A stretch of 64,000 nt of DNA from Calditrichia bacterium. Lineage in GTDB: Bacteria > Calditrichota > Calditrichia > RBG-13-44-9 > J075. Positions 9,752 through 42,161 of the stretch are shown one piece after another. Location of the stretch: assembly GCA_028284905.1 (NCBI GenBank), contig JANQQU010000062.1, positions 124,001 through 188,000 of the forward strand, written 5' to 3'. How positions within the stretch are numbered: position 1 is the first letter of the stretch; every line of letters begins with the position of its first letter. The translations under genes and the position numbers were made by a program. The notes below the pieces were generated by a model that saw only the letters and a list, made by a program, of their open reading frames with translations, was not told the DNA's origin and searched no databases.

Positions 9752-10744
9752 TCAAGAGCCACCGGCTTCTATCTCATCATTGATCCGGGCAAGACGAACA
9801 AACAGGGGTTCCAACAAATCCAGGTAAGCAGCTTCAGAGTATTGCGTCTTCTTTCGTTGAAGCGCGCGAATATTTTCCTCGATCTGCGCTTTTTCTCTCG
9901 CCAGGGTGATATTACCGGAGGCGAATGGTTGCGTTGCACGGTTGTCCAGGAAAAGGGTTGCTGCCAGGGCGCCATCTGCAGCATTTTCTATGGACTTTAT
10001 CGCGGTACCTTTGCCATCACCATTATCATCCAACAATGCATTTTCTGTAACGAGATGGTTGGCTTCCACAAACTCCTTGACCGTTGCAGATGCGGCATAA
10101 CGAAATATCTCCAACAGGCTTAGGCGTCCATCTTTTCCCAGGTCCGCCGCAGGAGAGTTGAATGCTTCAATCATGAACTTGGGAAATCGAGTGTCGTTGC
10201 GTTCCCGCCCACTTTGGGTTGCGGTAATAACTACACGGTTTTCGCCACTGAGTACTTTCAAAAAAGGACCTGAACAACTAGCAGTATTTATAAATACAAT
10301 GTTGCGTGCTTTTACCGTGTTCAACAAAGATGCGTAATCGATGTCTTTTAAATCCCGACGGGGAATGTTTAACATGGCGCTACTGCCGTCGAAGCTACCG
10401 TGGCCAAAGAGGAAAATGTAGAGGTCATCTTCAACGCTTATCTTATTTGAAATATCTGCGATCGCAGCGCGAATGTTATCGGCAGTACTAACCTGGCGAA
10501 CATGTTCTCCCAGTCTTTTTCTTGAGCCGCCCAACAATCTGACTTGCTCGGAAGGAACGCCAAATTTATCCACAAAAGCAGTACGAGTATCTAGCATATA
10601 AGTGTGAAAACGTTCCGTCAATTCCGGAGAGCCACCCAGGCCGCTGATGATAAGCACATGTTTTTCATTTTGCTGGGCAATTATGCTTTGCAATGAAAGA
10701 AGCAGAATTAAGAAAAAAACTTTATAGTAATGACGGGCATTCAT
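9752..10744 (-). CDS. Secreted caspase-fold (C13/legumain-like) cysteine peptidase
   Basis: 330 residues with a signal peptide (hydrophobic 8-23). The clan-CD dyad is visible: LFGHGSFDG with His115 and NTASCSGPF with Cys157, each after a hydrophobic beta strand, as in legumain/caspase folds. The C-terminal third is helical. It starts three bases after the stop of the VWA protein, so it closes the long MoxR operon. A periplasmic protease is expected; the substrate is unknown. Alternative: a non-peptidase member of the caspase-like fold, though both catalytic residues are present. Confidence 0.8.
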   Translation of the reverse strand: MNARHYYKVFFLILLLSLQSIIAQQNEKHVLIISGLGGSPELTERFHTYMLDTRTAFVDKFGVPSEQVRLLGGSRKRLGEHVRQVSTADNIRAAIADISNKISVEDDLYIFLFGHGSFDGSSAMLNIPRRDLKDIDYASLLNTVKARNIVFINTASCSGPFLKVLSGENRVVITATQSGRERNDTRFPKFMIEAFNSPAADLGKDGRLSLLEIFRYAASATVKEFVEANHLVTENALLDDNGDGKGTAIKSIENAADGALAATLFLDNRATQPFASGNITLAREKAQIEENIRALQRKKTQYSEAAYLDLLEPLFVRLARINDEIEAGGS

Positions 10745-10747
10745 GGC

Positions 10748-13060
10748 TTACGGCAACCCTTTCTGGCGGCGGTACGCCCATTCTATAGATAGAATCAGCA
10801 CAATCAGGAAAAACAGCAATGGTAAATCCCACAAGGATTTGGAAGTTAACATCGTACGATTATTCTCTGAGAACTTAAGCTGATTGGGGATGCTGCCAGC
10901 AGCTTCCGGCGCATAATATTGCCCATTGCTCGCGCTGGCTAAATTCTCCAGGGCCAACTTCGCCTGAACCGCATTGTAGTATTCATCCTGGGAATGTGAT
11001 GCGAGAAAACTTAACTGCTTTTTACCAACGGTCCGCCCATTTGCTGCGGCCTGAACATCGATGGTGTAAACGCCAGGTGATTCCGGAGTAAATGGATATT
11101 GATATTCTCCTTCAGCACCAAGCGCCGGCAGTAAACTTATTGGTATCATAGTTCCTTCCGGCGTCGTGATCGATGCTTGAAAAACAGCATTTGCTACCGG
11201 CTCGAAAGCATCACTGAAGACGTTAACCAGGATTTCCTGTTCTTCTTCCGGCACTGGTTGGTCATTCCCAATTACGATATTGAGCGGATCCTGCGCATTG
11301 CCGGCAAGCCAGTGAACCAATTGCCGCCAAAAACGTTCATGGCGATTATCGCCGGATTTGCTGAGCATTCGCCAACGCCAGGTGCTTATCGTTGCCAGGG
11401 CGGCACTGCGGCCTCGGCCATAGCGTTGTGTAACCAGCAGTGGGTTGGGTGTTTCGCCCGGCGCCAAAGCCGTCTCTGCCAGTACCGTCGCGCCAGGTTT
11501 GGCATCTCCCAGCAAATTGATCGCTGGTAATGGGGGCAGCTGCGACCATAAGTTCTTGTTGCGCGGTAAATCTGCGGAAAAACGTAAAATAGCACTTTCC
11601 AACCCATTCCTGGTAGGGACAAAATTTCGCCCTTTATCGATGGGGGCACGATAATTATAGCCCTGCGCTTTCTGCTGCTGTGGAGCACCTGCCGGCTTGA
11701 GAATTGTCGGGAGAAAATCTGCCACTGGGGTGTTTTTATAGGCGCCTTCGGAGAAGGTGCCGGCCCCGCCCAGCATTACAAAACCACCACCGCGTTTGCG
11801 TATAAATCGTTCAATTAATGCAAATTGATCCGCTGAGAAATAGTTCGCTTCTATGTCTCCGAAAAGCACTGCTTTATAACGGAACAAGGCGGTATCGCTG
11901 GCCGGAAAACCATCGCTAAGCTCCTGGGACTTGCGGATTCCCTGGCGGTAAAATTTGTCATCGCCGGTTTTGGAGAGTGCAACAAACTCAATGGCCGGAT
12001 CTTTTTCCATTGCACGTTTGATGAACTTAAATTCCATATTCAAGTGGCCCTGGAAGTGCAAGACGCGAATAGTATCCCGCCGGGTATCCAAAAGCATGTC
12101 CAGCGTATTGTTTTGCAAGTTCGCTTCATTTTCGGCAGCAGTCAAGCGAACACGATAGACATTGGCTCCTTCTTTTTTCGGATCAAAGAAGAAGGAGAAA
12201 TAGTCGATTTTGCCATTGCCACTGAGCGATAACGGCTTATTGTATACGATCTGATCGTTATCAAGAATGTCAAGATGGGCATCGGTCATCTCTTCACCCC
12301 AGCTGCGCACCGTTACTTCAACTTCTGCGCCGGTGCCCTCCCGAAGAATTTTATCGGTTTTTACGCTAAGTAATTCCCGGTCATTCTCCAGCTTCTCTGC
12401 ACCCAAGCCAACAATGTGCAGCGGAATTTTCTGTTCGCGAAGGCGGGCAACGGCTGCATCAGCATTGATCAGGCTGTTATCTGCACCATCCGTAAAAAGC
12501 ACTACGCCAGCGAGCGGTAATCCCTGGAAGTCGTCCACCACCTGGGTTAATGCTGCAGAGAGATTTGTACCACGTCCCTCCGGGATGCGATGCGGGAGAC
12601 TATCCTGCCGGGCGAGGAATCGCTCAAAGGTGTAATAGCGAACATTGTAGATATTCGCCAGGGGAGCAGATATACCATCATCTTCATTCCTGAGCACCTC
12701 AAGCGCTTCCTGGTAACGGCTCCTTCCTTCCCGGCCATCCTGTATGCCCATGCTGGCAGAATTATCCACTAAAACAGCGACAAAGTTTTCCTGGGGAATA
12801 ACATCCGGCACCACTATAAAGGGCTCCAGCAAGGGTAGGCACATCAGGAATGCCGCAGTGCCCCGCAGCGCTAGAGAAATTGTCCGAAAACGTGATGCCT
12901 TATAGCGGGGGCTTCGCTGGTATATTAGCCAAATGACCAGGGATATTAACAACGCGGCACCGATCACCAGGAAAAAGTTTTCCGGCTGAAAAACAATGTT
13001 GCCATCGCGATACTGCACAGGAGCGAATTTTAATAGATATTCAAACAATGAATTAAGCAT
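10748..13060 (-). CDS. VWA-domain membrane protein with glutamine-amidotransferase-like domain
   Basis: 770 residues. Transmembrane helices at ~28-48 and ~62-80, and a C-terminal one at ~745-762. A VWA domain follows the second helix, with MIDAS motif DNSAS at 99-103 and a later VLFTDGADN. The middle (~380-560) has the layout of a class-I glutamine-amidotransferase-like domain (VMLGGAGTF, then GRGRSAALATISTWRW) but no obvious catalytic cysteine. This architecture is common next to BatA-type genes. It lies 15 bp after the DUF4175-like gene and 3 bp before the C13-like gene. Role is probably envelope complex assembly or surveillance with the MoxR chaperone. Confidence 0.85.
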   Translation of the reverse strand: MLNSLFEYLLKFAPVQYRDGNIVFQPENFFLVIGAALLISLVIWLIYQRSPRYKASRFRTISLALRGTAAFLMCLPLLEPFIVVPDVIPQENFVAVLVDNSASMGIQDGREGRSRYQEALEVLRNEDDGISAPLANIYNVRYYTFERFLARQDSLPHRIPEGRGTNLSAALTQVVDDFQGLPLAGVVLFTDGADNSLINADAAVARLREQKIPLHIVGLGAEKLENDRELLSVKTDKILREGTGAEVEVTVRSWGEEMTDAHLDILDNDQIVYNKPLSLSGNGKIDYFSFFFDPKKEGANVYRVRLTAAENEANLQNNTLDMLLDTRRDTIRVLHFQGHLNMEFKFIKRAMEKDPAIEFVALSKTGDDKFYRQGIRKSQELSDGFPASDTALFRYKAVLFGDIEANYFSADQFALIERFIRKRGGGFVMLGGAGTFSEGAYKNTPVADFLPTILKPAGAPQQQKAQGYNYRAPIDKGRNFVPTRNGLESAILRFSADLPRNKNLWSQLPPLPAINLLGDAKPGATVLAETALAPGETPNPLLVTQRYGRGRSAALATISTWRWRMLSKSGDNRHERFWRQLVHWLAGNAQDPLNIVIGNDQPVPEEEQEILVNVFSDAFEPVANAVFQASITTPEGTMIPISLLPALGAEGEYQYPFTPESPGVYTIDVQAAANGRTVGKKQLSFLASHSQDEYYNAVQAKLALENLASASNGQYYAPEAAGSIPNQLKFSENNRTMLTSKSLWDLPLLFFLIVLILSIEWAYRRQKGLP

Positions 13061-30651: not shown

Positions 30652-31233
30652 TTATTCTTCTTTCTGCGGTACTGGATAGAACATGATTAATCCCCGAAAT
30701 GATAATTCCTCAACATCATCCGGGTATTCTTCAGATTCATCTGGCGTAAATTCCGCCAGCCATTCCTCAAGTTTTTGGCGCAAAGACTGCATTCTTTCCT
30801 TGCTCCCGCGCGCAGAAATACGCATCATCAAGGGGGTATCTTCATCAGGAATCTCTTCTGTAAAATCAATATTCTCCAGCAAAGAGATCACTTCTTTCTC
30901 AGTATCCCGCAGCATATTTCGAACAAGGCCGGTTGTCTCATTTTCATTCTCTTTATTGGATAGTAATGATCCATCCAGTTCAAACCTTGTGGCAACGGTT
31001 TGATAAAACCGCTCAACAGTGCCCCTTTTTTGTTGTTCCTTAACAACTTTCAACAACTCGGCCTGAACGAGTGCATCGATGTGACGATACAGCCTTGTTT
31101 GTTTGGTATTCAGTATCTCCGCAACCTGCTTTGCCGTTCGCGGCTCTTCTACAAACTGCTCAAGAATACTCATCTTAAAAGTATCTACCAATAGGGCAGC
31201 CTGATCCATTCTTTTAACCCAATATGTGCTCAT
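30652..31233 (-). CDS. ArsR-like winged-helix transcriptional regulator
   Basis: 193 residues. The N-terminal winged helix spans ~10-80: FKMSILEQFVEEPRTAKQVA, then EILNTKQTRLYRHIDALVQA and a charged wing KVVKEQQKRGTVERFYQ. The C-terminal half is acidic and helical without a recognised ligand pocket. It is transcribed divergently from a CPBP protease gene. An 8-bp-arm palindrome sits in the intervening promoter, so autoregulation and control of the neighbour are likely. Confidence 0.85.
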   Translation of the reverse strand: MSTYWVKRMDQAALLVDTFKMSILEQFVEEPRTAKQVAEILNTKQTRLYRHIDALVQAELLKVVKEQQKRGTVERFYQTVATRFELDGSLLSNKENENETTGLVRNMLRDTEKEVISLLENIDFTEEIPDEDTPLMMRISARGSKERMQSLRQKLEEWLAEFTPDESEEYPDDVEELSFRGLIMFYPVPQKEE

Positions 31234-32079: not shown

Positions 32080-32100
32080 TTGAGCGTTTTGAGCGATATT
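32080..32100 (+). promoter_or_regulatory. TGAGCG element, copy a (upstream of ncRNA promoter)
   Basis: TTGAGCGTTTTGAGCGATAT plus a final T: two direct TGAGCG hexamers with a 9-bp period and an ATATT tail. It ends 13 bp before the -35 box at 32114. Sequence-identical over 21 bp to copy b. Confidence 0.7.
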
Positions 32101-32113
32101 TTTGTTTTTTTGC

Positions 32114-32142
32114 TTGACAAATAAGTTAAGCAGTATTATAAT
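32114..32142 (+). promoter_or_regulatory. Consensus sigma-70-type promoter of the orphan RNA
   Basis: TTGACA (32114-32119), 17-bp spacer, TATAAT (32137-32142): a perfect match to the housekeeping consensus in both boxes. It lies after the CPBP gene and no ORF with an RBS follows. Copies a and b of the TGAGCG element lie on either side. Confidence 0.75.
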
Positions 32143-32151
32143 GGAATAAAG

Positions 32152-32172
32152 TTGAGCGTTTTGAGCGATATT
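32152..32172 (+). promoter_or_regulatory. TGAGCG element, copy b (+4 of ncRNA transcript)
   Basis: Identical to copy a over 21 bp and placed 72 bp downstream of it in the same orientation. It would cover about +4 to +24 of the transcript, a classic repressor position. Confidence 0.7.
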
Positions 32173-32341
32173 GAAAGCTTTGAAATAATATAAAGGGAGT
32201 GGATCTATTAACAGTTGGCAGGCAGATTCTTGAGGTAAATAAATACCAGTTTAAGAGATGAGATAAATATGTCGTGAATTTCTAACTGTTTTTAGATCCT
32301 AATATTTTAATACCCGGTTTCTGCGGGTTTATCATAGATAT

Positions 32342-32376
32342 AAAAGGGACAGTGCTTAGCATTGTCCCTTTTTTTT
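32342..32376 (+). terminator. Strong Rho-independent terminator of the orphan RNA
   Basis: AAAGGGACAGTGC (32343-32355) pairs with GCATTGTCCCTTT (32359-32371) with one G-T wobble and a 3-nt loop, followed by a run of T to 32376. It may also serve the convergent FtsX permease gene on the other strand, where the T-run is shorter. Confidence 0.85.
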
Positions 32377-32394
32377 ATTCTCTACAATAAAACT

Positions 32395-34797
32395 TTACTC
32401 ATACCGCAAAGCTTTCGCTGGATTGGTGAGAGCAGCGCGGATGGCCTGATACCCAACACTGAGAATCGCAACACCAGCCGCGATTAGTAATGCATAAAGA
32501 AAAGTCGTCCAGGAAATATCCGCCCGATAAGCAAAATTGGCCAGCCACTCTTTGCCGATTAAATAACCCACTGGCATAGCGAGAAATGCGGCAATGCCCA
32601 CCCACTTCATAAATTCCCGCGAAAGCAAAACAATGATGCCCGGAATGGAAGCGCCAAGCACTTTCCTGATGCCGATTTCCCGGGTCTTCTGTTCGGTGGT
32701 AAAGGATGCCAGGCCGAACAGCCCCAGGCATGCAACGAAAATTGCCAGAAAGGCAAAGGTCGAAACTAATGTACCAGCATTTTCTTCCATTCGATACATC
32801 CGGGAAAAGTTTTCGTTGAGGAAATCATACTCAAATTCTCGGCCCGGCAGTTGGGCTGCCCAGGTCGCTTCGATATGATTGAGCGCATCCTGTATATTGC
32901 TACCATTTACCTTCGCAATCAGGTAGCTGAAGCGCTCCGGATCGATATACATGATTACGGGCTCAATTCGTTCGGTCATCTTGTTGTAATGAAAATCCCG
33001 TACAACCCCGATGACGGAATAGACCTGGTCGTCATCACCCTCAAATTGTTTGCCAATGGGATCTTCCCACCCTAGTTCGCTTACCGCAGTTTCGTTGATG
33101 ATCACCGCAGCACTGCTGTCGGTGGCAAAGTCCCGGGAAAAGTTTCGCCCACTGGTGATCTCCATTTCCATGGTGGGAATGTAGTCAAAATCGATATAGC
33201 TGATTCGCATCATCAGACTAACTTCGCCGTTTGTGCCGGCGACGGTTCTTGTCCCCTGAGAACCGCTGGTGCCACGCAAACCTGCGCTGCCAGCTACGCT
33301 GCGAATGTTTGGGTTAGTGAGTAACTGTTCTCTGAGCGTTTCGATTTTTGCGGCTTCCTCATCGCCACGAATTGGGAGGTAAAGAACCTGGTCGATATTA
33401 TACCCGAGCGGTTTCTGGCGAACATATTCCATTTGTTCACTGACAATGCCGGTCGTAATGATCAAAACGATTGCAATCCCAAACTGTATCACCACTAAAG
33501 CCTTTCGCAACAGTGTAGAACGTCCACTGGCATTGACGTTAAAATTACCCTTTAAGGTTTGCACGGGTCGAAATGCAGAAAGGAATAATGCCGGATAGCT
33601 GCCGGCAATAATACCGGTAACCAGCGTAATCAGGGCAAGTTCTGCGATGAAGGTGTCATAATCATAAAAGTTTTGATAAATCCGTCCACCGGAAATTTCA
33701 TTGAAGAACGGGGCAGAGAGCATCACAATGCCGATGGCGAGGGTTAATGCGACAAATGCTACCAGCAACGACTCACAAAGGAAAAGATAAATCAGAGAAC
33801 CGCGGGAAGTGCCAAGCGTTTTTCGTACCCCCACTTCTTTCGCACGTTTCGCCGAGCGGGCTGTGGAAAGATTCATAAAATTGATGCAGGCGATCACCAA
33901 AATCAATAACGCGATAATTGAGAAAGTGTAAACAAGTTCAATACTGCCCTGGCGAACATTGTAAGTTTGGAAACGAATGTGCCCGGAGTGCAGATGGACG
34001 TCTGTGATTGGCTGCAGATAGATTTCCAGGTTGTTGTTCCAGGAACGGGCGGGGATATTGCGTTCGATAAAATCCGGGAATTTTGTTTCCAGCGCAGTCG
34101 GATATGCACCAGCCTTTAAGCGAATATAGGTGGCGAGAGTATTGGATTGCCAACTATTCATCCAGCTAAACTTTTCGATAAACGGCTGAATCGATGCCAG
34201 TACCCGAAAAGTGAGGTGAGAATTTTTCGGATAATTTTCTACGATGCCGGTTATCGTCATCTCCATAGTGCCGGCCCAGGTTTCCAGCGTTAATACTTCA
34301 TTTAAACCGCCCCCCTCCGGGAAATATTTCTCAGCAACTTCTTCACTGATGACCACAGAATTGGGATTGACTAAAGCGGTTTCCGGATTGCCCTGCAGAA
34401 AATTTACGCCGAAGATGTCGAAAAAGGCTTCGTCTGCAACAGCAACACTTTCTTCATAAAACCCTTTTTCCCCGAAGCGACAGAAGGTCGTTCCTATTGG
34501 CATTATTCGTGTTGCATTTTCAATTTCCGGGAAATCTGCCAGCAAAGCGGGTGCTAACGGCCCCATCGTCACTGCAACATCCTGCCTGTCAATGCCGGGA
34601 GGACGTTGAATTTCAACTGGCCGAAAGATACGCTCAGCATTAGGATGGAAATTGTCGTAGCTCAGTTCGTTCTTGATATAAGTCGAAATTAAAACGAAAC
34701 CTGCCAGTCCAATTGCCAACCCGGCAATGTTAATAAAAGAGAATACTTTGTTCCTGGTAAGGTTCCGTAAAGCGATTTTAAAATAGTTCCGCAGCAT
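32395..34797 (-). CDS. MacB-like FtsX-domain ABC permease (800 aa)
   Basis: About 800 residues from ATG 34795-34797, with GAGGGG seven bases upstream; an ATG 15 bases earlier lacks an RBS. It starts MLRNYFKIALRNLTRNKVFS, then the first helix and a MacB periplasmic domain (~50-270). FtsX helices follow (~280-425, including RAKEVGVRKTLG), then a second periplasmic domain (~450-660) and a final FtsX set (~670-800, with KTREIGIRKVLGAS). This duplicated layout is typical of Bacteroidetes-type permeases whose ATPase is encoded elsewhere. It is divergent from the DUF4397 gene across a region with two TGAGCG elements. Confidence 0.93.
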   Translation of the reverse strand: MLRNYFKIALRNLTRNKVFSFINIAGLAIGLAGFVLISTYIKNELSYDNFHPNAERIFRPVEIQRPPGIDRQDVAVTMGPLAPALLADFPEIENATRIMPIGTTFCRFGEKGFYEESVAVADEAFFDIFGVNFLQGNPETALVNPNSVVISEEVAEKYFPEGGGLNEVLTLETWAGTMEMTITGIVENYPKNSHLTFRVLASIQPFIEKFSWMNSWQSNTLATYIRLKAGAYPTALETKFPDFIERNIPARSWNNNLEIYLQPITDVHLHSGHIRFQTYNVRQGSIELVYTFSIIALLILVIACINFMNLSTARSAKRAKEVGVRKTLGTSRGSLIYLFLCESLLVAFVALTLAIGIVMLSAPFFNEISGGRIYQNFYDYDTFIAELALITLVTGIIAGSYPALFLSAFRPVQTLKGNFNVNASGRSTLLRKALVVIQFGIAIVLIITTGIVSEQMEYVRQKPLGYNIDQVLYLPIRGDEEAAKIETLREQLLTNPNIRSVAGSAGLRGTSGSQGTRTVAGTNGEVSLMMRISYIDFDYIPTMEMEITSGRNFSRDFATDSSAAVIINETAVSELGWEDPIGKQFEGDDDQVYSVIGVVRDFHYNKMTERIEPVIMYIDPERFSYLIAKVNGSNIQDALNHIEATWAAQLPGREFEYDFLNENFSRMYRMEENAGTLVSTFAFLAIFVACLGLFGLASFTTEQKTREIGIRKVLGASIPGIIVLLSREFMKWVGIAAFLAMPVGYLIGKEWLANFAYRADISWTTFLYALLIAAGVAILSVGYQAIRAALTNPAKALRYE

Positions 34798-34858
34798 GCA
34801 AAAACCCCTCATCTATTTTGGTTTTTTATTTGACCGCAAAACGTCTAAAAAGGTTTAC

Positions 34859-34894
34859 AAGCGTTTTTAGCAACGTTTTTTAGCGAAAACGCTT
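34859..34894. promoter_or_regulatory. Inverted repeat upstream of the FtsX permease
   Basis: AAGCGTTTT (34859-34867) and AAAACGCTT (34886-34894) are perfect 9-bp inverted arms 18 bp apart, 62 bp upstream of the permease start. The arms share GCGTTTT with the TGAGCG element but lack its tandem hexamers. It may be an operator for another regulator or a 5'-UTR stem in the permease mRNA. Apart from this, the elements c and d and the promoter between them, the 34798-35148 gap shows no gene. Confidence 0.4.
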
Positions 34895-35004
34895 ATTTTT
34901 TTCAAGAAAAAACTGCATGGTCAAAGGCACTTTTCTAAAGATATAAATAACAATATTTTACAGTTGCATCAGAATCGTTCCGCGAGCGGTTAAATCAGCA
35001 CAAA

Positions 35005-35025
35005 ATGAGCGTTTTGAGCGATATT
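35005..35025 (+). promoter_or_regulatory. TGAGCG element, copy c (upstream of DUF4397 promoter)
   Basis: ATGAGCGTTTTGAGCGATAT plus T, preceded by CAAA. It ends 14 bp before the -35 box at 35040, the same distance (within 1 bp) as copy a has to its promoter. Confidence 0.7.
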
Positions 35026-35039
35026 TTTAATCTTTGGGC

Positions 35040-35068
35040 TTGACAAAGGCAATTTTAAGCGGTATACT
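35040..35068 (+). promoter_or_regulatory. Sigma-70-type promoter of the DUF4397 lipoprotein gene
   Basis: TTGACA (35040-35045), 17-bp spacer, TATACT (35063-35068). It lies 80 bp upstream of the true start codon. TGAGCG copies c and d flank it in the same geometry as the ncRNA promoter. Confidence 0.75.
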
Positions 35069-35079
35069 TGTCGCACAAT

Positions 35080-35097
35080 AACGCTCAAAACGCTCAT
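35080..35097 (-). promoter_or_regulatory. TGAGCG element, copy d (inverted, at +5 of DUF4397 transcript)
   Basis: On the minus strand this reads ATGAGCGTTTTGAGCGTT. It covers about +5 to +22 of the expected transcript, as copy b does, but in the opposite orientation. With copy c it makes an inverted pair centred on the promoter. Confidence 0.65.
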
Positions 35098-35148
35098 TTT
35101 GTTTTGGCGATAAAAATTGAAAATAATTACATAAACAAGGAGATAGTC

Positions 35149-36468
35149 ATGAAAAGTTTCAAATTTTTAAATCTGCTAACAGTATTCTTCCTAGCTTTCG
35201 CCATCAGCGCATGTAGCGACGATGATGACACAATTACCACCCCGGCTGAGGGAACTACCAAGCTTCGTGTCATTCACACTAGCTACGATGCACCGGCCGT
35301 AGATATTCAGGTAGATAATGCAGTTGCAATTTCCGGCCTGGCATATGGTGAGACTTCCGGTTATGCTGAGCTTGCTTCCGGTAGCCGTAATATCAAAGTA
35401 ACACCGGCTGGCGCTACAACTCCGGTAGTTATCGAAGCAAATGTTAATCTGGAAGATGGTAAAGAATATAGCGTTTACGCAGTTGGCGATTTAGCGAACA
35501 TCACTGCTATAGTTAGTGAAGATTTACGCACCGCAAATGCTTCTAAAGCAAAAGTACGTTTTATCCACACTGCACCGGATGCACCAGCCGTAGACATTCG
35601 CTTGAACAGCGGCGCTGGACCGGTTGTTTTCTCCAACGCAGCTTTCAAAGATTTCACTGATTACATTGAAGTAGACGAAGGCACTTACACTTTCGTAGTA
35701 ACGCCGACCGGCGCAAATGCAGAAGTAGTTGTGTTTGATCCGATAGCAATCACCAATGGCAATGTATACACCGTAGTTGCCCACGGCACACTCGATGCGA
35801 CTGACGCTTTCCCCTTCGCAGTAAGAGCATTTGTAGATAACAATGCAGGCGACGCCTTTGCAGATTTCACCACCGATGCACGCGCGAATGTAAAAGTAGC
35901 TCACGCCTCTCCGGATGCACCGGGTGTTGATCTGCTCATCGACGATGCAGTCATCAACGCTGCTCCGCTCGAATTCCCGAACAACACTGACTACCTGGAA
36001 GTAATGCCTGGCACCCGCAATATTAAAGTAAACGCCAGCGGCACTACAACGACGGTAATCGAGGCTGACTTAGTACTTGCAGCAAACATGAATTACTCAA
36101 TCTTTGCAGTAGATTTTCTTGCAAACATTGCTCCGATCGTTCTTGAAGATGACTTGACTGCACCGGCAGCTGGCAAAGCACACGTTCGCTTCCTGCATCT
36201 TTCTCCGGACGCTCCGGCAGTAGACATTACATTAACCGACGGCACTGTTGTTTTCGGTAACTATTCCTTCAAGGAAGCAACAGACTTCACACCGCTGGAT
36301 GCAACCACTTACGATCTACAGGTTCGCTTAGCTGGCACTTCCACCGTAGTATTGGATTTACCGGGCATTACCCTGGAAGCTGGTAAGATCTACACCGTAT
36401 TTGCCAAAGGCTCTGTAAATGGTACTGCAGACAAAGCTTTGGGTGCTTCCATTATTGTTGCTAACTAA
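35149..36468 (+). CDS. Lipoprotein with four DUF4397 domains
   Basis: 439 residues from ATG 35149, which has AAGGAGA at ideal spacing; an upstream in-frame ATG at 35068 overlaps the -10 box and the operator and is rejected. A lipoprotein signal ends in ISAC (Cys23), followed by an acidic stretch SDDDD. Four DUF4397 domains of ~100 residues follow, each opening with a variant of VRFIHTAPDAPAVDI and closing with a YTVFAxG strand. DUF4397 domains are Ig-like beta sandwiches of unknown function in surface or secreted proteins. A strong terminator follows. The promoter is flanked by TGAGCG elements, so expression is probably tightly regulated. Confidence 0.92.
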   Translation: MKSFKFLNLLTVFFLAFAISACSDDDDTITTPAEGTTKLRVIHTSYDAPAVDIQVDNAVAISGLAYGETSGYAELASGSRNIKVTPAGATTPVVIEANVNLEDGKEYSVYAVGDLANITAIVSEDLRTANASKAKVRFIHTAPDAPAVDIRLNSGAGPVVFSNAAFKDFTDYIEVDEGTYTFVVTPTGANAEVVVFDPIAITNGNVYTVVAHGTLDATDAFPFAVRAFVDNNAGDAFADFTTDARANVKVAHASPDAPGVDLLIDDAVINAAPLEFPNNTDYLEVMPGTRNIKVNASGTTTTVIEADLVLAANMNYSIFAVDFLANIAPIVLEDDLTAPAAGKAHVRFLHLSPDAPAVDITLTDGTVVFGNYSFKEATDFTPLDATTYDLQVRLAGTSTVVLDLPGITLEAGKIYTVFAKGSVNGTADKALGASIIVAN

Positions 36469-36514
36469 TTTCTATCATCTCTCTGAGTAGAAATAGCACT
36501 AATTGCTAATCATC

Positions 36515-36545
36515 AAACGCCGGCTTCTTAGTCGGCGTTTTTTAT
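36515..36545 (+). terminator. Rho-independent terminator of the DUF4397 gene
   Basis: AACGCCG and CGGCGTT form a 7-bp GC-rich stem around a ~9-nt loop, followed by TTTTTTATT. It also abuts the 3' end of the convergent minus-strand gene and may act in both directions. Confidence 0.85.
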
Positions 36546-36970
36546 TATATGTAGTAGGGGACCATCCGGATAACAATTAGCGCTCTGAGACTCCATGCAA
36601 TAGTACGGATCCAGTTGCTGGTTATCAGGCGATGAAGAATTAGTGGATCATAGCGATCCGAAAGCGCCCGATGACATGGCACTTGTATCAAAAAAGTCGA
36701 CCCCCATATTATCAACAACAGCACGATACCACTCCATTCAAGCACATCCGGAACGGCCGTATTTCCGAGCCAGGTAACAGCTATTCCAGTCCCCAGTTCT
36801 AAAACCATTATTGGTGCGATAACCCAGCCGGTTCGGGTAGTGTGCTGATTCTCATATGCAACAAATTTACCGCTGCCCACTTCCCGGAACAGTGGATAAT
36901 GCACAATTTGAACGAACCAGATAATACCAGCCATCATTAAAGTTGTCAAGAGATGGATATCGAAGAGCAT
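36545..36970 (-). CDS. Small four-helix integral membrane protein, unknown
   Basis: 141 residues from ATG 36968-36970, with AGGA eight bases upstream; a TTG six bases earlier is less likely. Four hydrophobic helices: ~5-24, ~49-68, ~76-95 and ~118-134. Conserved-looking polar spots are VQIVHYPLF and NQHTTRTGWVIAP, and a CHRALSDRYD loop. It may belong to an uncharacterised DUF family of membrane proteins; I cannot name it. Divergent from the PQQ/CBM48 gene across TGAGCG copy e. Confidence 0.75.
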   Translation of the reverse strand: MLFDIHLLTTLMMAGIIWFVQIVHYPLFREVGSGKFVAYENQHTTRTGWVIAPIMVLELGTGIAVTWLGNTAVPDVLEWSGIVLLLIIWGSTFLIQVPCHRALSDRYDPLILHRLITSNWIRTIAWSLRALIVIRMVPYYI

Positions 36971-37066
36971 AATCAAATTCCTTTCATAAGGTCATTCTTA
37001 AAATGTAAAAAAATGTCATCAGAAAAAAAACATGATGATATTTTCACTTTATATCGTATTTTAAAA

Positions 37067-37083
37067 CGAGCGTTTTGAGCGTT
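37067..37083 (+). promoter_or_regulatory. TGAGCG element, copy e
   Basis: CGAGCGTTTTGAGCGTT, i.e. the tandem hexamer pair with the first T changed to C and TTTT in place of the ATATT tail. It sits in the divergent region between the small membrane protein (start 36970) and the PQQ/CBM48 gene (start 37134). No strong promoter boxes are seen next to it. Confidence 0.5.
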
Positions 37084-37133
37084 TTTTTTGATTATTGTAA
37101 AGAATTGCGATCCATGATTAAGAGGAAAAGAAT

Positions 37134-39044
37134 ATGCCCCGGCAGAAACCAAACCTGATTTTTGTTTTGATTTTCGTAGCAACATTTAATGCCCCTTTGA
37201 TATTTGCCCAGGGGAACTGGCCCCAATGGGGAGGGGCGGAAGGTGATTTTGAGATTACCATTTCACAAATAATGAAAGAGTGGCCGCCAGAAGGCCCGCC
37301 GGAACTTTGGAGCCGGGAATTAGGTTCGGGAAATTCTGGCATTGTTATCGATAATGATTGGCTTTTTACGATGTATCGGCCATTGAATGATGCCGGTGAT
37401 GCACAGTTCAATGAGTATGTCGTGGCGATTGATGCCAGTACCGGGAAAACCCACTGGGAATATCATTATCCCGCACCGCCAATTGAGGGTCAGGAGCAAT
37501 ACGGCGGCGGTATTGGCCCCCATGCAACTCCGTTAATCACGGAAAAATATCTCTATACAGTCGGATATACCGGCATATTCTATTGTTTTGATCGCAATAA
37601 TGGTGCAGTCGTATGGTCTTACAATCTCGTGAAAGATTTTAGTGCAATCCCGGTCCAATTTGGCTTTTCCGCCAGCCCAATAATTTATCAGGAAAATGTT
37701 ATCGTTCAAGCCTGTGGCCCGGAAAGTGGACTTATTGCCTTCAACCAGTCGACCGGGGAAGTGCAATGGAAATCTCCCTCGGCAAAATTCAGTTATGCGA
37801 CACCAATTGTTGTGAAATATGAAAAAGGAGACTTCTTAGTGCTGGTTGGCGGAGATGCAGTCCAGGGCATTGATGTGAACAACGGCCAAGTTCGTTGGTC
37901 TTATCCCATGCGGGAAAAAGGGCTGACCAATGTGCCGACACCTGTTTGGCTGGAAAACCAATTCCTTTTTATCGCTGGTCAGGGCGTGAATGGGGGAGAG
38001 CTGTTACGTTTCAGCGGACCTGTAGCAGATATTAACATTGAATCCATTTGGCACAACAATAAAGTTAGTCTCTTTGTAAACAACCTGGTTGTTAAGGGAG
38101 ATTATGCTTATGGCGGGGATGATTTTTTCTTCGGCTTCAATTGGCGAACCGGAAAATTGCTCTGGAAAAAACGCGGTTTTAAAAACGCGAATGTGTTACT
38201 CAGCGATGATTTTGGAATATTCCTTACTCAGGATGGGGAACTGGTCCTTGGCAAGCTTAGTCCGGAAGACTTAAACGAAATCTCTCGGTTTACTTTATTT
38301 GACGGCAGCGCCTGGACGATACCAACGGTCGTTAATGGGAAATTATATAGTCGGAACAGAGAGCTACTGGTCGCATTGGATTTATCCAAAGAAGATAGCA
38401 CTAGCGATAAACCATTGTCCTTACGCCAGATCGAATTGAAATTGCAACAGCTTGCCCGATCTGGCGAAATTTCAGCTGTTATCAATACTTTCCAAAAATA
38501 TCGTTCGATGCAATCAAGCAATATTGACCATCGCATACTTGCCAAGATTGGCCAGAGCCTTCTGGAGAAAGAGCAATATAAAAGTGCCCTGTCGCTACTG
38601 GCAGCCAATGCAGAGGCTTTTCCGAATAACACTGATACACAGATTAATCTTGCAAATGCTTTATTACAATCCGGTCAACAAAAAGAGGCTGCAGATGCCT
38701 ATCAAAGCATTCTGGCCATCGAACCGGATCATCCCGTTGCCAACCATCTGCTTCCACAGCTTCAACCAGCTGCGCTCTCTGGTGCAGGAACATTGTTTCA
38801 GCTAAATGATTATGCCGATGCCAGACTGGTGACTGTTGCCGGCAGCTTTAACGGCTGGCATCCAAAGCACACCATTATGCAACGGACGGATAAAGGCTGG
38901 CGTTGTAAAATCCAACTGGATAAAGGTGAGTATACCTATAAATTTGTTGTTGATGGGCAATGGATGATCGACCCCGGCAATCCGGAAAAGGTAGATGATG
39001 GCAACGGTAATATTAATTCAAGATTGATTGTTTCCGGTCAATAA
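37134..39044 (+). CDS. Secreted PQQ-type propeller / TPR / CBM48-like protein
   Basis: 636 residues with a signal peptide (cleavage near FAQG, residue 26). Residues ~30-420 form a PQQ-like beta propeller: NWPQWGGAEGDF opening, then blades such as IDASTGKTHWEYHY and FNQSTGEVQWKSP. Residues ~435-545 are TPR-like helices. The last ~80 residues match the AMPK-type glycogen-binding E-set/CBM48 domain: VTVAGSFNGWHP, then GEYTYKFVVDGQWMIDPGN. The combination suggests a periplasmic binding or scaffolding protein for a glucan-like polysaccharide. No catalytic motif was identified. RBS AAGAGGAAAAG upstream. Confidence 0.85.
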   Translation: MPRQKPNLIFVLIFVATFNAPLIFAQGNWPQWGGAEGDFEITISQIMKEWPPEGPPELWSRELGSGNSGIVIDNDWLFTMYRPLNDAGDAQFNEYVVAIDASTGKTHWEYHYPAPPIEGQEQYGGGIGPHATPLITEKYLYTVGYTGIFYCFDRNNGAVVWSYNLVKDFSAIPVQFGFSASPIIYQENVIVQACGPESGLIAFNQSTGEVQWKSPSAKFSYATPIVVKYEKGDFLVLVGGDAVQGIDVNNGQVRWSYPMREKGLTNVPTPVWLENQFLFIAGQGVNGGELLRFSGPVADINIESIWHNNKVSLFVNNLVVKGDYAYGGDDFFFGFNWRTGKLLWKKRGFKNANVLLSDDFGIFLTQDGELVLGKLSPEDLNEISRFTLFDGSAWTIPTVVNGKLYSRNRELLVALDLSKEDSTSDKPLSLRQIELKLQQLARSGEISAVINTFQKYRSMQSSNIDHRILAKIGQSLLEKEQYKSALSLLAANAEAFPNNTDTQINLANALLQSGQQKEAADAYQSILAIEPDHPVANHLLPQLQPAALSGAGTLFQLNDYADARLVTVAGSFNGWHPKHTIMQRTDKGWRCKIQLDKGEYTYKFVVDGQWMIDPGNPEKVDDGNGNINSRLIVSGQ

Positions 39045-39085
39045 AAAAAGGGACTGATTACCACGCGCCAGTGGCATTCAGTCCC
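39043..39085 (-). terminator. Rho-independent terminator of the SDR gene
   Basis: Read on the minus strand, GGGACTGA/TCAGTCCC (39078-39085 with 39050-39057) plus CCAC/GTGG (39061-39064 with 39071-39074) form a two-part stem with a symmetric 3-nt internal loop, followed by seven T. It overlaps the last codon of the convergent PQQ/CBM48 gene. Confidence 0.8.
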
Positions 39086-39113
39086 CTGTAAGAGAACAAG
39101 CTTATTGCAATTT

Positions 39114-39836
39114 TTACAAAGGTTTCAAGGAAGAGAGACCGCCGTCGACACCAAATACTTGTCCGGTAATCCAGCCACTGTTTTCCGAAAGCAGAAAAGC
39201 TGCCATTGCAGCAACTTCGTCGGGATGACCAATCTCTTTTAGCGGATGTCGCGCCGCTGATGCTTCCCGTTTTTTATCATTCGACAACAGCTGTCCGGCC
39301 AGTGGTGTATCCGTTATAGATGGCGCAATAACGTTAAAGCGAATATTGACTGCAGCATATTCTGCTGCCAACGATTTTGCAAGTCCTTCAACTGCTGCCT
39401 TCGCTGCAGCGATAGACGCATGGAAATTCATCCCGGCCTTTGCAGCAACAGTGCTAAACATAACTACTGAAGCTGGTGAACCCTTCTTTAAAGCTGGCAA
39501 TGCTGCCTGAATCGTTTTTACAGCACCGAATAAGTTAATGTTTAGATCTGCCAGAAAATCACTGATTTGCAGGCGATGGAATGGTTTTAAGGTGATGCTG
39601 CCGGGACAATAGGCGACGCCATGCAACTCTTCCGGCAGAAAAGAAGACAACCCGGAAAAATCTTCCGTCGTTACATCCATGGGAAAATGATTTAAGCCGG
39701 GTAAATTTGTATTGCTATTCTGGCGGGATACAATATAGACACTCGCCTCTTGATGTAAAAGCATCTTTGTCAGAGACAAACCAATTCCGGAACTCCCACC
39801 AACCACTAAAATATTTTTATTTTTCAAAGTTTTCAT
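39114..39836 (-). CDS. SDR-family oxidoreductase lacking the canonical tyrosine
   Basis: About 240 residues, starting at the second of two adjacent ATGs (39834-39839), with AGGAG six bases upstream; a further upstream extension has no RBS. Cofactor site GGSSGIGLSL near residue 10, NNAG-equivalent replaced by AYCPGSI. The catalytic serine segment VVMFSTVAAKAG is followed by NFHASIAAAKAAVEG: the Lys of YxxxK is present but the Tyr position is Ile. From memory, similar FHASxAAAK sequences occur in other SDRs, so this may define a clade rather than a decayed enzyme. C-terminal GWITGQVFGVDGGLS is normal. Function unknown. Confidence 0.88.
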   Translation of the reverse strand: MKTLKNKNILVVGGSSGIGLSLTKMLLHQEASVYIVSRQNSNTNLPGLNHFPMDVTTEDFSGLSSFLPEELHGVAYCPGSITLKPFHRLQISDFLADLNINLFGAVKTIQAALPALKKGSPASVVMFSTVAAKAGMNFHASIAAAKAAVEGLAKSLAAEYAAVNIRFNVIAPSITDTPLAGQLLSNDKKREASAARHPLKEIGHPDEVAAMAAFLLSENSGWITGQVFGVDGGLSSLKPL

Positions 39837-39892
39837 CATTAACTCCTGTTTTTGCAACAATATACAACTATTTTTAGCTCTGCACAAGCAAA

Positions 39893-39913
39893 ATGAGCGT
39901 TTTGAGCGATATT
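39893..39913 (+). promoter_or_regulatory. TGAGCG element, copy f
   Basis: ATGAGCGTTTTGAGCGATAT plus T, preceded by CAAA, identical to copy c. It lies in the divergent region between the SDR (minus) and the TMEM220-sulfatase pair (plus). A weak TTGGAT-17-TAAACT match follows at 39933-39961. Confidence 0.65.
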
Positions 39914-40005: not shown

Positions 40006-40386
40006 ATGAAAACAGGCTCGAGATTTAAACTTTATAATGGTTTTATGGTTGGCATTTTTTTATTGTCTGCGCTTGTTCAGTACAACGATCCGGACCCGCT
40101 GCTCTGGATTGTCATCTACGGTATTGCCGCCCTGGTTAGCTATCTCGCTTTTTCCCCTCGTCTCGACAAGCGCCTGCCACTTTATCTGGCAATCCTCGCT
40201 TTCGGCTGGGCAGCCTTTCATCTGCCCGACGTATGGGGGAAGGTAACCCTTGGTGAAATTTTTCAATCGATTGAAATGAAAACAATTGCCGTAGAAAAGG
40301 CCCGGGAAATGGGGGGATTAGTCATTATCGCTTCGTGGATGCTTTATCTGTATAGTCATTTAAAAAAGACCGCTGACAACAACTAA
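40006..40386 (+). CDS. TMEM220-like small membrane protein
   Basis: 126 residues with four hydrophobic helices. The motif LVQYNDPDPLLWIVIYG near residue 25 is the signature of the transmembrane family 220. RBS AAAGGTGG is upstream. It is the first gene of a pair with the sulfatase, whose start lies within 15 bp of its stop. Function unknown. Confidence 0.8.
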   Translation: MKTGSRFKLYNGFMVGIFLLSALVQYNDPDPLLWIVIYGIAALVSYLAFSPRLDKRLPLYLAILAFGWAAFHLPDVWGKVTLGEIFQSIEMKTIAVEKAREMGGLVIIASWMLYLYSHLKKTADNN

Positions 40387-40400
40387 AATTGAGGCATATT

Positions 40401-42161
40401 TTGTTCAATGATTTTCGAATTATCATGCTCTCCTTATTATTCTCAGGAATGTTTTTCTCTTGCCAGGATCAAAATGAAGCGCCACCGAACATTGTGCTGA
40501 TTATGACCGACGATCAGGGTTGGGGGGATTTGAGCAGTCATGGGAACGACTCACTTCAAACCCCAGCGCTCGACAAGCTCCGTTCAGAGAGTGTTCGTTT
40601 TCAGCGCTTTTATGTGTCTCCGGTTTGCGCGCCGACTCGCGCCAGTTTGTTAACCGGCCGCTATCACCTCCGTACCGGCACTACCTGGGTAACCCATCGT
40701 AAGGAAGTGATGCGTGAAGATGAGGTCACTATTGCGGAAATCCTGCAAGACGCTGGTTATCGCACCGGTCTTTTCGGAAAGTGGCACAATGGCGAGCAGT
40801 ATCCCCACGATCCCCGGGGGCAGGGGTTTGACACATTTTTCGGTTTTTCCGCCGGGCACTGGAACAACTACTTTGACACAGAGCTATTCCACAATGGAAA
40901 ACGAGTAAAAACTGAAGGTTACATCAGTGATGTGTTAACCGATCAGGCAATAAATTTCATTGAGGAAAACCGCGCCCGTCCATTCTTTTGCTATATACCC
41001 TATAACGCTCCCCATAGCCCGATGCAGGTAGCGGATAAATATTTTAACCGGCTAAAGAATAACGGCATCAGCGATTATAATGCTGCCGTTTATGGCATGG
41101 TGGAGAATATAGATGATAATATTTCCCGGATTTTGGAAACATTGGACAAGCTGAACCTGCAAGAGAACACTGTCGTTTTATTCACTACCGACAATGGACC
41201 AAACGGTCACAGATTTAATGGCGGCATGAAGGGAAAGAAGGCGGATGTCGATGAAGGCGGCGTGCGTGTCCCATTGTTTATTCGCTATCCGGGGGGGGGA
41301 TTTCAGCCCGGGAAAGCAGTTGGGGCTTTGGCAGCACACATTGATATATTACCCACCTTGCTGGACATCTGCAATCTGGAAATACCCGCCAATCTTGATC
41401 TGGATGGGCAGAGCCTCGCCGGCTTGCTCCGCGGGGATAGCACTGAACTAGGGAACCGCACGCTCTATACTTTTCCCATTGGCCGGCAGCTCACACCCTA
41501 TCCGGGTGCTGTCCGCACCGACCGCTATCGGATGGTGTTGGAACGGGATAGCACACATTCTTTATATGATATGCAAAACGATCCCTCTCAGGCAGACAAT
41601 ATCGCTGATCAATTTCCAGCAGAAACCCGGCAACTCGCAGCCGAATACCTGCTTGCATTTCAGGAGGTGACAAGTGAGCTGGGGCCACCACCGGCGATAC
41701 AAATAGGGCATCAGGGATATCCGGAAACGATTCTGCCGGCACCGGAAGCCCGCCTTTCCGGCAATGTTAAATTTAGCGAGTACTGGGGATGGGCCAACGA
41801 CTGGATCACCAACTGGCAATCGCTAACCGACAGTATTTATTGGGATTTAAAAGTAGTTGAAGCAGCGGAATACGAAGTAATCATTCAATATACTTGCCCG
41901 GAAACGCAAGTGGGTGCAAAAATATCTGCACAGGTAGACGGGCAATCGCTGGCCAAAGAAATCACAGAGACTCATGACCCTGCCTATTTGCCCAGCCCCG
42001 ATCGTATTCAGCGTTGGGAAGTCTATGAAAAGATCTGGAAAAGAATCTCGCTGGGAAACGTAAATATTAAAGCCGGCAAGCAACGACTGCTGCTTCAGGC
42101 GCCCAAAATACCCGGTACGCAAGCGATCGACCTAAAATCTGTAATCATTCGGCAAATTTAG
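40401..42161 (+). CDS. Type I sulfatase, predicted lipoprotein
   Basis: About 586 residues from TTG 40401, which has GAGG six bases upstream; an in-frame TTG at 40389 is also possible. A lipoprotein-like signal ends in MFFSC. The sulfatase core begins IVLIMTDDQGWGD with metal-binding DD. The FGly signature is CAPTRASLLTGR with Cys76. GKWHNG and FTTDNGPNGH supply further active-site residues. After ~445 a C-terminal accessory region of ~140 residues (KFSEYWGWANDWITNW onward) looks beta-rich. Cys-type sulfatases need the radical-SAM maturase anSME, not encoded in this window. It probably desulfates a polysaccharide. Confidence 0.93.
   Translation: MFNDFRIIMLSLLFSGMFFSCQDQNEAPPNIVLIMTDDQGWGDLSSHGNDSLQTPALDKLRSESVRFQRFYVSPVCAPTRASLLTGRYHLRTGTTWVTHRKEVMREDEVTIAEILQDAGYRTGLFGKWHNGEQYPHDPRGQGFDTFFGFSAGHWNNYFDTELFHNGKRVKTEGYISDVLTDQAINFIEENRARPFFCYIPYNAPHSPMQVADKYFNRLKNNGISDYNAAVYGMVENIDDNISRILETLDKLNLQENTVVLFTTDNGPNGHRFNGGMKGKKADVDEGGVRVPLFIRYPGGGFQPGKAVGALAAHIDILPTLLDICNLEIPANLDLDGQSLAGLLRGDSTELGNRTLYTFPIGRQLTPYPGAVRTDRYRMVLERDSTHSLYDMQNDPSQADNIADQFPAETRQLAAEYLLAFQEVTSELGPPPAIQIGHQGYPETILPAPEARLSGNVKFSEYWGWANDWITNWQSLTDSIYWDLKVVEAAEYEVIIQYTCPETQVGAKISAQVDGQSLAKEITETHDPAYLPSPDRIQRWEVYEKIWKRISLGNVNIKAGKQRLLLQAPKIPGTQAIDLKSVIIRQI

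Follow-up and report, generated by a model that had tools for sequence, protein, structure and literature searches.

A 64-kb window of DNA from a member of the Calditrichota, the whole stretch that was analysed, contains six copies of a tandem element, TGAGCG-TTT-TGAGCG, and raises the question of which protein reads them and how far its control extends. A reading of the sequence alone proposed a local regulon under an unknown regulator. The results described below suggest a more specific answer: the elements are very likely the operators of a CarH/LitR-like, B12-binding MerR regulator that would silence its targets in the dark and be released from them by light.

All six copies are present, at coordinates 0–2 bases higher than those first given (Table 1). 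The exact sequence TGAGCGTTTTGAGCG is found in five of them, and the copy at 37067, CGAGCGTTTTGAGCG, has C as its first base. The ATATT tail initially ascribed to the element occurs in four of the six copies but not at 35082 (TTATT) or 37067 (TTTTT). The six elements have PWM scores of 31.5–37.4 bits and the next best match scores 9.4; pattern and PWM searches of the 64-kb window found no seventh copy, as had been claimed, the nearest other matches carrying two mismatches. With genes called simply as longest ORFs, all six elements are indeed intergenic; an ORF would reach the copy at 35082 only by starting the DUF4397 gene at an upstream TTG that is spurious. Of the four loci, three separate divergent genes, again in agreement with the sequence-only reading, and the 32081/32153 locus is flanked by convergent genes encoding a CPBP-like (+) and an FtsX-like (-) protein.

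Table 1. Putative operators, predicted promoters and neighbouring features in the window
Feature	Position	Strand	Remarks
Putative operator, half of pair A	32081..32095	+	TGAGCGTTTTGAGCG; upstream of promoter A -35
Predicted promoter A	32114..32142	+	TTGACA-17-TATAAT, 12/12 consensus; between operators 32081 and 32153
Candidate small RNA	32150..32375	+	Behind promoter A; runs against 3' end of FtsX-like gene
Putative operator, half of pair A	32153..32167	+	At expected start site; tandem to 32081
Putative operator, half of pair B	35006..35020	+	19 bp upstream of promoter B -35
Predicted promoter B	35040..35068	+	TTGACA-17-TATACT; reads into DUF4397 gene
Putative operator, half of pair B	35082..35096	-	13 bp past promoter B -10; faces 35006
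DUF4397 lipoprotein-like gene	35149..36468	+	Orthologues in 4 other family genomes also adjoin operators
Putative single operator	37067..37081	+	CGAGCGTTTTGAGCG; between small membrane protein gene (-) and PQQ/CBM48 gene (+)
PQQ-repeat/TPR/AMPK1_CBM protein gene	37134..39044	+	Likely target
Short-chain dehydrogenase (SDR) gene	39114..39887	-	ORF from TTG; true start probably an ATG about 45 bp into the ORF
Putative single operator	39894..39908	+	Between SDR gene (-) and TMEM220-sulfatase genes (+)
TMEM220 protein and sulfatase genes	40006..42161	+	Possible targets

Pattern searches of the host genome (8,551,719 bases, or 8.55 Mb, in 93 contigs) returned 22 motif matches with at most one mismatch, against 0 for a reversed control pattern, and 34 against 6 with at most two mismatches; these counts indicate that the elements are not due to chance. 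The accepted set comprises 22 sites at about 15 promoters: a coding match on contig C89 was dropped and one two-mismatch partner site (C7:242531) was included. The window makes up 0.75% of the genome yet carries 6 of the approximately 22 sites and 4 of the approximately 15 promoters. The clustering of sites is thus genuine, but the regulon itself is not local; the proposal of a regulon stands, and a purely local one is rejected on the genome-wide counts. The sites are also biased towards intergenic DNA: of 71 that were collected, 65 fall outside ORFs of 100 aa or more, although ORFs of this length make up 88% of the examined DNA, and most of the other six lie within over-extended ORF starts.

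The collected sites give the consensus AAA-TGAGCG-WTW-TGAGCG-WTTT, in which GAGCG is nearly invariant and the repeat unit is 9 bp, consistent with the head-to-tail direct repeat originally described. The motif is carried by the whole family (G001–G006). It lies upstream of orthologues in different genera: clustering gives five genomes for each of the phytoene desaturase-like, carH-like, DUF4397 and GTP cyclohydrolase II genes, and three for photolyases and for a photolyase-related protein. Conservation in orthologous promoters, which had been put forward as a check, is found across genera and families.

The genes at these sites, judged from their predicted products, fit a light response. All three PF00875 photolyase-family genes of the host genome belong to operons that start at a site, and further sites adjoin genes for lycopene cyclase, phytoene synthase, GTP cyclohydrolase II with DPRP (a photolyase-related protein), a DUF1722 protein, a SOUL protein, fasciclin, a PAS-SpoIIE protein and carbonic anhydrase. 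In the window, the targets are probably the genes for the DUF4397, PQQ/CBM and SDR proteins, and possibly the TMEM220-sulfatase genes; an SDR homologue directly follows carH in genome G003. The PAS-SpoIIE gene (10211-11407 in locus L083, contig C77) is separated from a gene for a 230-aa protein by an operator at 9914-9928, and the PAS region of its product contains an NCRFLQG motif that is LOV-like by eye. The B12 light regulon may, in this case, control a flavin photoreceptor. A single site, TGAGCGTTATGAGCG, precedes an Rrf2 regulator and SUF Fe-S assembly operon (contig C41, L080 9949-9963). It may be a true target or a chance match, and its link to light is not clear.

The sequence-only reading saw no regulator gene nearby, rightly, and the candidate lies in another part of the genome, at C7:241566-242432, where it adjoins the carotenoid (crt) operon. 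This single-copy gene encodes a 289-aa protein with MerR/HTH_17, B12-binding_2 and B12-binding domains; HTH_17, MerR_1 and B12-binding_2 score above the Pfam cut-off, and B12-binding scores 24.3 bits, under its cut-off of 32.1. The best PDB match of the full protein is CtMerR (8JBS, E=2e-28, residues 6-271); the isolated DNA-binding domain gives a match to BldC (6AMA, E=2e-4). A MerR-like HTH followed by B12-binding_2/B12-binding, linkage to crt genes and a light-protection regulon are all features of the CarH/LitR type. The regulator that had been considered unknown is thus very probably this CarH-like B12-binding MerR protein, on an argument that is strong but inferential. An ATP:cobalamin adenosyltransferase gene is present in the genome, and no close relative of the regulator was found on plasmids. 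An ArsR-like HTH_20 gene beside the CPBP-like membrane protease gene (30652-31233, -) was also considered as the regulator and rejected, its divergent promoter being without the motif.

CtMerR (8JBS/8JBT) is an AdoCbl tetramer in the dark and a monomer in the light, and an alternative DNA-binding site has been proposed for it (PMC11796333). It is the closest solved relative of the Calditrichota proteins, winged helix included. GxxW, EH and the lower-axial-ligand His are common to both, and were kept in all 12 full-length Calditrichota proteins. The latter differ from CtMerR in mostly lacking the GxxH glycine of the SignatureFinder signature, which is present just in G005b and G006b; GxxxP is found in most full-length proteins but is missing from those of G000, G003, G005b and G006b, and His132 of TtCarH is mostly not conserved. 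Such variation would suit a CarH-like protein that binds the element but senses B12 itself or redox state, or that has lost its AdoCbl dependence, like CarA. This seems unlikely, given the full retention of GxxW, EH and the axial His, the richness of the regulon in photolyase and carotenoid genes, and the fact that CtMerR has no bis-His light state and still monomerises in the light (PMC11796333). By homology with CtMerR and from the content of the regulon, the CarH-like protein would be a sensor of light through AdoCbl.

The predicted mode of DNA recognition is less classical. The operators of CarH are tandem 11-bp repeats, nnnnTnnACAn (PMC9304148). CarH of Thermus thermophilus and Bacillus megaterium and CarH/CarA of Myxococcus are likewise crt-linked, B12-binding, light-dependent repressors, and their operators, like the putative ones of Calditrichota, are head-to-tail direct repeats near -35/-10. 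However, their 11-bp tandem repeats contrast with the two 9-bp TGAGCGWTW repeats of Calditrichota, usually present as two inward-facing sites around the promoter, and tandem TnnACA repeats with an 11-bp period were found at none of ten site-bearing promoters tested. The Calditrichota winged helix is closer to that of BldC than to that of classical CarH. BldC binds 9-bp direct repeats head-to-tail, with the consensus AATTXXXX(C), inserting Arg30 into the major groove and His46/Arg47 into the AT minor groove (PMC5859096). The sites of the related BldC of Streptomyces (6AMA, 6AMK) and the Calditrichota element are both 9-bp direct repeats in which an AT tract is combined with a C-G pair as the ninth position (AATTXXXXC against AAAACGCTC), and the two proteins have Arg30, Trp31 and His46 in common; the Arg, Trp, His and Arg equivalent to BldC Arg30, Trp31, His46 and Arg47 are invariant in 13 of 13 proteins. 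Because of this common layout and these kept contact residues, the 9-bp repeat fits a BldC-type winged helix. BldC is, however, a sensorless stand-alone domain of 68 residues, and its sites vary in number and are loosely defined in sequence, whereas the GAGCG core is nearly invariant in Calditrichota; the B12 effector domains of the 289-aa protein rule out the BldC family proper. The word "operator" is absent from the CtMerR paper (PMC11796333), and the Calditrichota motif is a candidate for the operator type of the CtMerR branch.

The motif and the regulator gene occur together. In 11 of 40 Calditrichota genomes, 13 carH-like genes were found, and all 13 are preceded by the 9-bp repeat at a distance of no more than about 300 bp. 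A PWM built from family f1 alone detects the repeat in the upstream region of each of the five carH genes that lie outside f1; the scores there are 15.6 to 34.9, whereas control genes have a median of -9.5 and a 90th percentile of -0.2. The top-scoring "control" genes are mostly divergent partners sharing the intergenic region of carH; other high controls, a homologue (by eye) of the window SDR (L170) and a phytoene synthase-like gene (L175), were fetched for the motif and are therefore non-independent. At least two exact copies of GAGCGWTWTGAGCG are present in 7 of 11 genomes with carH and 1 of 29 without it (raw counts, ignoring kinship). In genomes lacking carH, exact 14-mers are about as frequent as chance predicts: 28 genomes gave four hits, the expectation being about 0.03 per Mb. 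The exception, G001, has three motif copies but no detected carH, in an assembly that is 88% complete and split into 590 contigs. Sites without carH would be expected if a different regulator, for example one responsive to light or singlet oxygen, bound the element and carH were merely one of its targets; carH lies within the regulon, and a motif upstream of it would be expected even then. Such an arrangement is nevertheless unlikely, since the carH promoter keeps the repeat in distant Calditrichota (G030, G032, G021) that have few other copies, and since the 9-bp head-to-tail repeat is a BldC-type target and carH encodes the sole non-mobile HTH_17 protein of the host genome (the second of two is excisionase-like, beside an integrase). 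Points that do count against the CarH-like explanation are the dissimilarity of the 9-bp operator to the 11-bp CarH operators, the variation at His132 and GxxH, and the Rrf2/SUF site. Genus g6 carries two carH paralogues with an operator upstream of both (G005 L094 6041-6907 and L097 10087-10956; G006 L100 and L099), one beside crt genes and the other beside GTP cyclohydrolase II and photolyase-related genes.

Close sites are arranged around promoters in a regular manner. Among 18 close pairs, 17 face inward, 32081/32153 being the sole tandem pair, and in 16 a -35/-10 promoter with a 17-bp spacer can be recognised between the two sites. The gap from the upstream operator to the -35 is 7-9 or 16-19 bp, and that from the -10 to the downstream operator is 5-7 or 10-15 bp; the start of transcription therefore lies under the downstream site, an arrangement suggestive of repression. 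Pair spacings form three clusters near 58, 66 and 75 bp, for which a 9-bp step is somewhat better than 10.5 (17 pairs, descriptive). Being identical, intergenic and clustered in the window, the elements might instead be mobile or structural repeats of the REP or DNA-uptake kind. This is extremely improbable, as sites share just the 15-23-bp motif and no sequence beyond its immediate flank, pairs frame the promoter at quantised distances, and sites lie upstream of orthologous genes across genera and families.

A mechanism based on the CarH-like regulator can be proposed. Each element would consist of two 9-bp half-sites (complementary strand AAAWCGCTC-AAAACGCTC-A), contacted by two BldC-type winged-helix domains positioned head-to-tail. 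Loaded with AdoCbl in the dark, the protein would be a tetramer (by analogy with CtMerR and CarH) and would sit on the operators, silencing the sigma-70-type promoters that they enclose. On exposure to green or blue light the Co-C bond would break and the tetramer would dissociate, allowing expression of carotenoid, photolyase, flavin-synthesis and other light-stress genes. A single tetramer would fit the four half-sites at a promoter, although two tetramers are equally possible, and the paired sites may clamp the promoter in a loop. Promoter A may drive a light-regulated small RNA: the candidate transcript, about 225 bp long, has no convincing ORF, ends in a strong intrinsic terminator (32342-32372) and folds with a z of -3.95 against 200 shuffles, to which the terminator itself contributes. 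It has no Rfam family and no convincing homologue in 40 genomes, and is unique to the host genome. Tentatively, these features can be combined into a fuller model, less likely to hold as a whole, of a B12-photoreceptor branch in which a BldC-type winged helix reads 9-bp repeats, a single dark tetramer places its domains two and two on inward-facing operators to clamp the promoter in a light-releasable loop, and the regulon includes a light-controlled small RNA.

For a branch of the B12 photoreceptors that has been little studied, these results predict an operator and a regulon spanning the genome, and they join two known modes, CarH sensing and BldC-type 9-bp head-to-tail binding. The short, defined two-operator promoter would suit use as a simple optogenetic part. 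No paper mentioning CarH in Calditrichota was found in the literature, and control of genes by green or blue light is now predicted in this phylum.
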